Made by a program: the position numbers and the translations under genes. DNA of 39,819 nucleotides from Ignavibacteria bacterium (lineage in GTDB: Bacteria > Bacteroidota > Ignavibacteria > Ignavibacteriales > Melioribacteraceae). Positions 31,770 to 34,765 of this stretch are shown here, piece after piece; the first letter of the stretch is position 1, and each line of letters begins with the position of its first letter. The notes under the pieces were generated by a model that was given only the letters and a program-made list of their open reading frames with translations, ran no database searches and was not told the origin of the DNA. The stretch is taken from contig JAAYAN010000063.1 of the NCBI GenBank assembly GCA_012719345.1, positions 1 to 39,819 on the forward strand, given 5' to 3'.

Positions 31770-32267
31770 ATGAGCGGAATAGAAGAAAAATTGAGAAAAA
31801 TTAAGCTTGTTGTAACCGATTTAGACGGGGTTCTTACCGATGGGGGACTTTATTATACAGGCGAGGGAATGGTAATGAAAAAGTTTAACGTTAAGGACGG
31901 AATGGGTTCCAGGCTTCTTCAAAAAGAAGGAATTTTAGTGGGAATAATTTCCACGGATGTTTCGCCTATAATTGATAAGAGAGCTTCGCGGCTGGAAATG
32001 GATTTTGTTTACACCGGAATTTGGGAAAAAGACGAAACGTTAAAACAACTCTGCAAAGAAAAAAATATAAATTTGGAAGAAACCGCCTTTATTGGCGACG
32101 ATGTTAATGATTTGGGAATTATAGAAATTGCGGGCATTTCTGCCGCCCCATCCGATGCCGTGGATGAAGTTAAAGAAAACGTGGATTTAGTTCTAACACG
32201 AAAAGGCGGCGACGCTGTTTTTAGAGAATTTGCAGAAATGATTATCAAGAGTAAGAAGTATGAGTAA
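31770..32267 (+). CDS. KdsC-like HAD phosphatase
   Basis: 165 residues, the size of the tetrameric C0-type HAD phosphatases. Motif I is VVTDLDGVLTDGG (Asp17 nucleophile, Asp19 acid/base); the final motif is FIGDDVNDLGI; FNVKDGMGSRLLQKEGI and DAVDEVKENVDLVLTRKGG are typical of 3-deoxy-D-manno-octulosonate-8-phosphate phosphatase. That enzyme acts in Kdo synthesis for lipopolysaccharide, but close relatives act on KDN-8-P or other sugar phosphates. No kdsA, kdsB or kdsD is adjacent, so the substrate is inferred from family only. The stop codon lies inside an AGTAAG repeat hairpin. Confidence 0.85.
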   Translation: MSGIEEKLRKIKLVVTDLDGVLTDGGLYYTGEGMVMKKFNVKDGMGSRLLQKEGILVGIISTDVSPIIDKRASRLEMDFVYTGIWEKDETLKQLCKEKNINLEETAFIGDDVNDLGIIEIAGISAAPSDAVDEVKENVDLVLTRKGGDAVFREFAEMIIKSKKYE

Positions 32268-32308
32268 GAGTAAGATGTAAGAAAAATCTTACTCTTACTT
32301 CTTACTCT
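32249..32308. repeat. AGTAAG-type repeat forming an inverted repeat at the kdsC-like 3' end
   Basis: The sequence is built from AGTAAG/AAGAGT units on the left and their reverse complements on the right. AGTAAGAGTAAGAT (32263-32276) pairs exactly with 32286-32299 around a 9-base loop, and outer parts pair further with a 6-base bulge in the left arm. Six T residues follow at 32310-32315, so it may double as a terminator. The kdsC-like stop codon lies inside it. Confidence 0.65.
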
Positions 32309-32315
32309 GTTTTTT
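32286..32315 (+). terminator. Possible terminator made by the AGTAAG inverted repeat
   Basis: The right arm of the inverted repeat (32286-32308) is followed by a T6 run at 32310-32315, giving a long though AT-rich terminator-like hairpin for the kdsC-like transcript. Confidence 0.45.
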
Positions 32316-32323: not shown

Positions 32324-32369
32324 CCACATTCACTCTTGCTTTTCTCCTTTAACAGTTTAAATTTATAGT

Positions 32370-32381
32370 GTACGAATGTTC
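32370..32381 (+). promoter_or_regulatory. Candidate LexA-like site at the polymerase fragment start
   Basis: GTAC-GAAT-GTTC at 32370-32381 matches the GAAC-N4-GTTC pattern of Gram-positive/actinobacterial LexA boxes at 7 of 8 fixed positions. TATAAT follows at 32384-32389. SOS control is usual for DnaE2-type genes, but a single near-match is weak evidence and the site overlaps the listed start codon. Confidence 0.25.
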
Positions 32382-34058
32382 ACTATAATGAATTTAAATT
32401 TAAAAAATACAGACTCTGAAATAAACCCGAAGTGGAAAGCTTCGCTCAGTATTCCGGTAATTCATCCCGACTTGCCGCGGAATACCGAAAACGTGCCGTT
32501 CGATATTTACGATTACGAAATGCTGTTCAACGACGAAGGCACAAAAAAGCTGATACGCGAAGGAAACACTATCGGCTGCTTTTACATCGAATCGCCGGGA
32601 ATGCGTTCGCTGCTGCAGCGGCTTAACTGCGACACGTTCGAAATGCTCACGGCGGCAAGTTCTGTAATACGTCCCGGAGTTGCCGAAAGCGGAATGATGC
32701 AGGAGTTTATCGAGAGGCATAAAAATCCCAAACGCCGCAAATATTTAGTTAAAGAGATGGAACTATACCTTGGCGAAACCTACGGCGTTATGATTTACCA
32801 GGAAGATGTTATAAAAGTGGCGCACCACATTGCCGGATTAACGCTCGAGGAAGCCGATCTTCTGCGAAGGGCAATGAGCGGAAAACTGCGTTCGCGCGAT
32901 GCTATGAAACGGCTTGCTGAAAGATTTGAGGAATCCTGCGCCGGAAAAGGATTTTCGCAAAGTGTAACGAAAGAATTGTGGCGGCAGATTGAATCCTTTG
33001 CCGGATATGCTTTTTGCAAAGCGCACAGCGCCTCTTTTGCCCTGCTGTCATTTCAGGTTGCATATCTTAAAGTCCATTACCCCGCCGAATTTATGGCGAG
33101 CGTTTTAAGCAACCGCGGCGGTTATTACTCGCCGGCGGTTTACGTGCAGGAATGCATTCGTATGGGACTTAAAGTTTTGCTTCCGTGCGTAAACAATAGT
33201 TTTTACGATTATTCTGCTGCCGGTAAAACCGTGCGCATCGGTTTTGTAGAGCTTAAAAATTTCTCAAAGAAGAGCGCCGGGAAAATTTCTGCAGAAAGGG
33301 AACGGAATGGCAGTTATAAATCTTTGCAGGATTTTCTTACCCGTACCGGCACAGGTTACGAGGAAAGCTCGATACTCATTCGCTGCGGTGCGATGGATAT
33401 TTTCGGCAAAACACGCCCGACACTGATGCGGCTGCTTGATGTTTATATGAGTCACCGCCGCCTGATTGATAACCGCAACGGGAACCTGTTTGCGGAGGAA
33501 ACTCTGAAACTTGAAAAGGAAATTGAAACCGACATTGATTACAGCATCGGGGAAAAATGCGCAATCGAGTACGAGACTTTCGGGTATATGATAACGCGTC
33601 ACCCGCTGGAGTTTTTCGGGAATGTGACTTCGCGGAAGGATATTGTGAAGGCTGCGGATATTAAAAAATATAACGGTAAACGGGTAAAAATGCTTGGCTG
33701 GTATATGACTTCCAAAAGAATTAAAACTAAAAAAGGGGAGATTATGAAGTTCCTTTCACTCGAAGACCTGACCGGGACTTTTGAAGCCGTGATTTTCCCG
33801 AAAGTTTATAACGGGTGCGCCGAGCTGACAATGTCGATGGGTCCTTACCTGATTGAAGGAATAGCCGATATGGTTAACGGGAATAATATTGTAGTGGAAA
33901 AACTTGCAGTGCTCACATCGCAAAAAACGCTTGCCGTAACGGAAAAAGACAGCGCCGAGAATAAATATTTTGGCGATACTGAAAAATTTGACGAAGAGGA
34001 AATAGGACTCGTGGAAGCGCTGGACAAAGAAAAGTTGAGGAGGGCGTATGTGGAATAA
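32376..34058 (+). pseudogene. 5'-truncated DnaE/DnaE2-type DNA polymerase III alpha subunit
   Basis: 560 residues that align with only the C-terminal half of Bacteroidota-type DnaE. Present: NTIGCFYIESPGMRSLLQRL (64-83), SVIRPGVAESGMM, YGVMIYQEDV (136-145), ADLLRRAMSGK (160-170), FAGYAFCKAHSAS (208-220), a helix-hairpin-helix region and an OB fold (about 440-520, VKMLGWYMTSKRIKTKKGE). Absent: the PHP domain and the palm segment with the PDxD catalytic aspartates, roughly the first 430 residues. The first 40 residues match nothing recognisable. The frame is open throughout, so expression of a partial protein is possible. GC is markedly higher than in neighbours (34 of 60 bases at 32581-32640). 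Flanks are repeated; most likely a transferred, broken gene, or half of a split one. Confidence 0.75.
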
Positions 34059-34060
34059 TT

Positions 34061-34090
34061 GAGAGTAAGAGTAAGTATCAAGAGTAAGAA
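34061..34090. repeat. AGTAAG-type repeat after the polymerase fragment
   Basis: GAGAGTAAGAGTAAG followed by a second AAGAGTAAG resembles the left arm of the repeat at 32249-32276, in the same orientation. It begins 3 bases after the polymerase fragment stop codon. Confidence 0.6.
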
Positions 34091-34157
34091 AAGGCAAAAA
34101 CCTAATTCCCTTAAATCCTGTTTTTACTTATAACTTATAACTGAAAACTTAAAACCA

Positions 34158-34242: not shown

Positions 34243-34569
34243 TTAACCAATTAAAGTTAACAATTCACTTATCTCTTTATCCGTTAGGGTGTTCTTTTCA
34301 TTCTTATCATAAATGGAAAGCAGGTAAACAGCAGATTCTGAAATGACAATATGAGTAATTATTCTTGCTCCGCCGGATTTTCCTTTCCCCTTTGAATTGA
34401 TTGCAATACGGATTTTGTAACAGTTATTTCCCAAGGGAGTGCCTTGTTCGGGTTTTTTCTCCAAGCTCGTTATCAAATTGGCAAATTCATTTTTAAGCGA
34501 TGGGTATTTTTTAACTAATCTTTTTAGTTGTCTATCGAATGGCGGTATGGAAAAAACATCAAAGTTCAT
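34243..34569 (-). CDS. RelE/ParE-superfamily toxin
   Basis: 108 residues with the compact RelE/ParE pattern: N-terminal strand and two helices (FDVFSIPPFDRQLKRLVKKY, SLKNEFANLITSLEKKPEQG), the TPLGNNCYKIRIAI strand turn, and a C-terminal GGARIITHIVISESAVYLLSIYDKNEK strand pair. Conserved Lys/Arg residues (KKYP, KIRIA, GGARI) fit an mRNA-cleaving or gyrase-targeting toxin; the two cannot be separated here. It overlaps the upstream antitoxin gene by 11 bases, the usual two-gene arrangement with the antitoxin first. Confidence 0.8.
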   Translation of the reverse strand: MNFDVFSIPPFDRQLKRLVKKYPSLKNEFANLITSLEKKPEQGTPLGNNCYKIRIAINSKGKGKSGGARIITHIVISESAVYLLSIYDKNEKNTLTDKEISELLTLIG

Positions 34570-34765
34570 TCAACAATTCTTTTGCCGGTTTTGCTTTTAA
34601 TTTGTTCTGTTTTACTAAATTAAGGTTTTCAACAGCTTCTTTAATGTCTTCAATTAATAAAGCCTTTTCTTCCGAAATAGTTTTGGCTTTAACATAAGGC
34701 AGACTTTTAAGAACTTCCATCAAATGAACTGCCTTGTTGTCTTTTATCTCCAGTAAAACTCTCAT
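34559..34765 (-). CDS. Antitoxin of the RelE/ParE-type pair
   Basis: 68 residues, highly charged, with a short N-terminal strand (MRVLLEIKDNKAVHLMEVL) and a long C-terminal amphipathic helix (LLIEDIKEAVENLNLVKQ) ending in KAKPAKELLNEL. The latter would wrap the toxin. No clear DNA-binding fold (Arc, AbrB, HTH) is visible, so how the pair autoregulates is open. It is translated first and overlaps the toxin start by 11 bases. Confidence 0.75.
   Translation of the reverse strand: MRVLLEIKDNKAVHLMEVLKSLPYVKAKTISEEKALLIEDIKEAVENLNLVKQNKLKAKPAKELLNEL

Follow-up and report, generated by a model that had tools for sequence, protein, structure and literature searches.

A DnaE2-type polymerase probably encoded by two separate genes in Ignavibacteriales, with a putative LexA operator at its C-terminal half

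Among the closest described systems is DnaE2B-PolY-RecA of Bacteroidetes, which comprises, in the available part of PMC12926913, a second C-family polymerase beside DnaE1 that is encoded with an active PolY bearing a RecA-NT-like tail; the polymerase there is one ~1000-aa polypeptide. The ImuA-ImuB-DnaE2 (ImuC) mutasome likewise uses a LexA-controlled second DnaE together with a Y-family protein. Polymerases encoded in two pieces have also been described. The split DnaE of cyanobacteria is a C-family polymerase made from two separated genes, but it is the replicative enzyme, is split inside the fingers region, and is religated by an intein. T4-type phage gp43A/gp43B and PolB of M. thermautotrophicus are DNA polymerases made as two polypeptides, but they are replicative Family B enzymes, and the accessible portions of PMC2988022 and PMC7776575 do not report that one half is placed under damage control separately. 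The available text of PMC3919608 mentions only DnaE split by an intein and the discarding of fragments that lack an active site, while that of PMC12926913 makes no mention of a split DnaE2, and a literature search for split DnaE in Ignavibacteria found no report. A C-family polymerase kept stably in two genes without an intein throughout an order is undescribed in what is available of PMC3919608 and PMC12926913.

Here, we analyzed a stretch of 39,819 nucleotides from an Ignavibacteria bacterium (the window; contig C53 of a 323-contig genome that was examined through searches). We consider it likely that one open reading frame (ORF) of the window encodes the C-terminal subunit (fingers, HhH, and OB), here called the C-half, of a DnaE2-type translesion polymerase that is naturally divided between two genes and would have its fingers subunit induced by the SOS response. 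Unlike DnaE2B-PolY-RecA as described in the available part of PMC12926913, this polymerase occupies two genes, is never fused in the order, and has a LexA box on the C-half. It differs from the mutasome in that the DnaE2A of the latter lies on another branch and is in one piece, with an inactive ImuB and with ImuA present, and from cyanobacterial DnaE in being an accessory polymerase that is divided between palm and fingers and has no intein.

The C-half in the window and its probable partner gene

The 560-aa ORF is flanked by stops and has no internal stop in a reading-frame check (Table 1). Pfam recognized the fingers domain (DNA_pol3_finger, E = 3e-38), HHH_6 (E = 7e-19), and a weak OB match at aa 441-482 (E = 0.005, under the curated cutoff), and gave no PHP or DNA_pol3_alpha (palm) match; NCBIfam DnaE models match from model position ~580 onward only. 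The earlier note on this DNA had described an open frame of 560 residues holding only the C-terminal half of DnaE, with PHP and palm missing, and both statements are borne out by these searches. Since the start codon at 32376 falls within the LexA box, a start at 32388 (556 aa) is likelier. The fingers motifs (Table 1) and F(C)KAHS are conserved in the C-half, and a conserved Leu-Phe is a putative positional match to the β-clamp motif, which is of the QxxLF type in DnaE1. In single-chain AlphaFold models, the C-half (pLDDT 78) matches DnaE structures from the fingers onward, and the N-half of a relative (pLDDT 87) matches them over the expected parts.

Table 1 Features of the C-half locus (window coordinates)
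Feature	Position	Strand	Remarks
LexA operator (SOS box) TAGTGTACGAATGTTCACTA	32366..32385		Putative; overlaps the C-half start region
dnaE2 C-half	32376..34058	+	DnaE2-type; fingers, tandem HhH, clamp-motif region, OB fold; likely true start 32388
N-terminal extension at the split	32388..32519	+	Residues ~5-48; low-confidence segment, then conserved FDIYDYxxxFxDExTKxLI (alignment)
Fingers domain	32520..32945	+	Pfam DNA_pol3_finger, aa 49-190; invariant CFYIESPGMR, IRPGVAESGMM, YQEDVIK, LRRAMSGK
FCKAHSAS motif	33012..33035	+	Uninterrupted (alignment)
HhH domain	33165..33422	+	Pfam HHH_6, aa 264-349
Leu-Phe where DnaE has its β-clamp binding motif	33486..33491	+	LF near invariant in the split family
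OB fold	33681..33911	+	aa ~436-512; five strands in model (Pfam and AlphaFold)

Directly downstream of the C-half, on the minus strand, a RelE/ParE-like 108-aa ORF with a 68-aa ORF just upstream (34243-34765) looks like a type II toxin-antitoxin pair. Short AAGAGTAAG-type repeats flank the C-half on both sides (32255-32310 and 34058-34095) and could be a mark of exchange of this GC-rich gene.

Where is the rest of the polymerase? A palm search of the genome led to two places, a full-length DnaE1 of 1162 aa on contig C56 and a 294-aa frame, with a palm only, that is cut off by the right end of contig C48 (C48:40936-41817). With the N-half of a relative as the query, the PHP part was found at the left end of contig C135 (C135:1-738). 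The ends of C48 and C135 meet to within a few residues (GKYKF / FPLP), indicating that the N-half is a single PHP-plus-palm gene cut by a contig break. Both searches proposed in the earlier note, for a PHP/palm fragment elsewhere in the genome and for a full-length second DnaE, thus gave a match. Upstream of the N-half on C135, on the same strand, there is a gene for a Y-family polymerase (PolY) with 63% identity to its counterpart in a relative, so that the genome carries DnaE1, an N-half accompanied by PolY, and the C-half of the window. Every sampled N-half, including the palm piece of our genome, retains the three catalytic aspartates (PDxDxDF and KxD). The PHP metal site is disrupted in the split family (TDH to TDx, and part of DIHY to Px(Y)F), altered as in other DnaE2s. 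Across the two proteins, the set of active-site and fingers motifs is complete.

Distribution, break site, and descent

We surveyed 164 Ignavibacteriales genomes, in which the named relatives are Ignavibacteriales, Melioribacteraceae, and Ignavibacteriaceae metagenome-assembled genomes (MAGs). Each half is present in 102 of them; 92 genomes have both, 10 only the C-half, 10 only the N-half, and 52 neither (Fisher P = 2e-22), in agreement with the alternative raised in the earlier note of a split polymerase with its N-half elsewhere. The 20 drafts with a single half are more fragmented assemblies (median, 430 versus 160 contigs; P = 4e-4). The largest open frame of either half is 628 aa, indicating that no genome of the order has them fused, and no intact full-length form was found in the 164 genomes. 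When both halves share a contig (40 pairs), all four relative arrangements are seen: 15 divergent, 14 C-first, 7 N-first, and 4 convergent. Outside the order, homologues in a survey of the phylum (395 genomes) are single frames of ~870 to 1060 aa with 38 to 44% identity; these closest fused homologues mostly adjoin a PolY gene, a likeness to DnaE2B-PolY-RecA. Among named genomes, an unclassified MAG has the nearest fused homologue found, a protein of 1047 aa with 47% identity (L083).

Could assembly have broken one full-length gene at a contig edge or by a frameshift? The N-half of our genome is indeed cut between C135 and C48, and a distant locus of an Olavius symbiont MAG outside the order (L088, 9791-10155), an apparent N/C split of a DnaE2-type gene that we rejected as an overlapping-frame frameshift, can imitate a split. 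However, the ORF in the window is 5.7 kb away from its contig end and has a start, operator, and stop of its own, and the extra residues around the break described below are absent from fused homologues. An artefact is refuted by the single-contig genomes G035, G046, G048, G049, G092, and G150, which hold two separate genes, mostly far apart (477 to 789 kb in G035, G046, G049, and G092), making this explanation barely credible.

The two halves are complementary. In fused relatives, the end of the N-half match coincides with the beginning of the C-half, and the halves tile fused ~1000-aa DnaE2-type proteins end to end. Aligned with Escherichia coli alpha, the N-half profile reaches residue 579 and that of the C-half begins at 591, placing the break at the palm-fingers border. 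The N-half continues for a median of 29 residues after its last catalytic motif, and the C-half has a median of 67 residues before FYIES; most fused homologues have 47 to 49 linking residues between these motifs, and the split proteins together are ~48 residues longer around the break. DnaE is the classic split-intein host according to the available part of PMC3919608, so joining of the halves by protein trans-splicing, as in cyanobacterial DnaE, has to be weighed. We found no intein fragments at the break, the tails leave no room for them, and the N-terminal extension of the C-half contains no HN[CST] motif. The break position also differs, lying between palm and fingers, and nothing interrupts the YxFCK motif of the C-half. 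The cyanobacterial split intein sits at the matching Y-C-F-N-K position, to be compared with FCKAHSAS in the C-half. On tail length, the missing motif, and the different site, we rejected a split intein as very improbable.

In separate trees of N- and C-halves, the split sequences form one clade each (SH-aLRT 99 in both), beside fused Bacteroidota and other PolY-linked DnaE2-type polymerases and away from DnaE1 and the ImuA/ImuB-linked DnaE2A, among whose rows there are long branches. Assignment to group B (DnaE2B) follows the description in the available part of PMC12926913 and the present tree, not the reference set of that paper. The two trees agree only in part, sharing 12 of the 18 clades with strong support and showing 4 pairs in conflict at SH-aLRT 95 (patristic r = 0.62), which suggests that single halves may at times be exchanged. 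A phage origin was rejected, as a viral collection yielded only ~30% identical relatives.

Both halves are under purifying selection, with dN/dS of 0.03 to 0.11 within genera, where synonymous sites are unsaturated. This bears on whether the ORF is a pseudogene in decay, the remnant of a second and perhaps horizontally acquired dnaE, as its lack of palm and PHP and its GC and GC3 anomaly in this genome might suggest. The short form is conserved in 102 of the 164 genomes, 92 of which keep the other half, its motifs are invariant, and its operator is conserved; with no relaxed selection and no intact full-length form in the order, we rejected decay as highly unlikely, and with it the truncated copy proposed in the earlier note. 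The sharp contrast in base composition that the note had pointed out is real, the C-half being the most GC-rich gene of the window (GC, 45.5% versus 35.5% for the window; GC3, 0.50 versus ~0.30 in neighbors), but part of it is a family trait, as C-halves average 4 GC points above their loci. In our genome, the GC3 gap between C-half and N-half (0.23, from the palm part of the N-half) exceeds that in all 44 other genomes (maximum, 0.14), suggesting that this C-half was replaced from a higher-GC relative. Recent acquisition, also proposed in the note, may therefore hold for this one C-half, but the split family is native to the order.

A further explanation is that the halves have diverged and form no polymerase, the C-half acting as a damage-induced DNA- or clamp-binding factor and the N-half as a PHP phosphoesterase or scaffold. 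Separate regulation of the halves, their occasional occurrence alone in drafts, and the partly incongruent trees fit this explanation. However, the Asp triad of the N-half and the nucleotide- and DNA-contacting finger motifs of the C-half are near invariant, which makes sense only if both meet in one active site, and the degenerate PHP metal motifs and the strong co-occurrence of the halves also argue against it. We consider separate functions unlikely, and a polymerase made of both halves the better reading.

A LexA-type operator at the C-half gene

Next to the C-half start, or overlapping it, is a 20-bp palindrome, TAGTGTACAWATGTNCACTA. Its matrix score is 14 or more in 47 of 50 genomes, as well as in 19 of the 21 outside the matrix-building set; two genomes of one genus (G044 and G051) lack it. 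A shuffled control gave no match at a score of at least 16 in 778 kb. A search of our genome allowing one mismatch found two places only, the box in the window and a site directly 5' of a canonical lexA gene, and on account of this sole other site the palindrome is very probably a LexA operator. The box thus points to LexA/SOS control of the C-half, which would presumably be induced by damage. Two adjacent LexA-box-like sites lie upstream of lexA (G000:C6:28538-28583; L178, 8539 and 8565), which suggests possible autoregulation.

Is the other half under the same control? Only 1 of 52 N-half genes has a box within 400 bp, which is that of a divergent promoter common to the C-half, and the 11 of 28 PolY genes with a box are all in divergent arrangement. 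Scanning the PolY and N-half regions to low score revealed no LexA box of their own beyond the shared divergent promoter. Even at loci with the N-half immediately before the C-half (G009 and L159), the box still lies between the two. Thus, the operator belongs to the C-half. In a good part of the genomes, however, linkage (divergent or C-first) lets the N-half share the box of the C-half, so a one-sided switch is not universal.

Gene neighborhood and the meaning of the split

PolY and DUF72 are recurrent neighbors of the halves, a neighborhood that fits the DnaE2B-PolY-RecA system of Bacteroidetes as described in the available part of PMC12926913. In 28 sampled genomes, ours included, PolY adjoins one or the other half, and other sampled N-halves have no PolY neighbor. 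Its catalytic motifs are present in 26 of the 28, and a RecA-NT-like tail was detected by a strict pattern in 14 of the 28 and is visible in our copy. On the Desulfosarcina ovata plasmid Do28_1 (L239), lexA, DUF72, PolY-like, and DnaE genes form one operon, the same gene set but with the DnaE2-type polymerase in one piece, and DUF72/PolY precede fused DnaE2-type genes at Treponema and Desulfobacterota loci. The repeated encoding of DUF72 with PolY-like and DnaE2-type genes, and with lexA (L239, L085, L089, and L091), hints that DUF72 may take part in translesion synthesis. In one family of the order, N-halves without PolY lie beside ~425-aa genes (L161, L188, L190, L194, L204, L206, and L216), and the N-half evolves faster than the C-half (for example, 78% versus 93% identity between G048 and G085).

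How might such a polymerase have arisen and work? A single split at the palm-fingers border in an ancestor of the order probably produced the two genes, which would then have moved apart freely. The partner of the C-half would be the separately encoded N-subunit, with degenerate PHP and a palm carrying three catalytic Asp residues, often beside an active PolY with a RecA-NT-like tail. We infer that the two proteins associate noncovalently, without splicing, into a working translesion polymerase; in the available part of PMC2988022, gp43A and gp43B of phage 25 copurify and are active, a precedent for noncovalent assembly. The C-half would be repressed by LexA and induced by DNA damage and, where the N-half has no box, its supply would be the step that switches the polymerase on. 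The assembled polymerase would presumably act with PolY and RecA in lesion bypass. It is possible, though we hold this tentatively, that the split itself is a regulatory device: the N-half, with PolY, would be made without LexA control, and the LexA-induced C-half would be limiting, so that its synthesis assembles and switches on a mutagenic polymerase.

The split calls for caution in surveys: Ignavibacteriales genomes are misread when fragments lacking an active site are discarded or palm-only frames are counted. The putative LexA box obtained here for Ignavibacteriales offers an entry into the LexA regulon of the order, and the natural break offers cut points for a split polymerase and a simple test of control by assembly. 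To our knowledge, control by subunit completion has no known case in a C-family polymerase. If the split is indeed regulatory, translesion synthesis in these bacteria would be controlled by the completion of a subunit pair.
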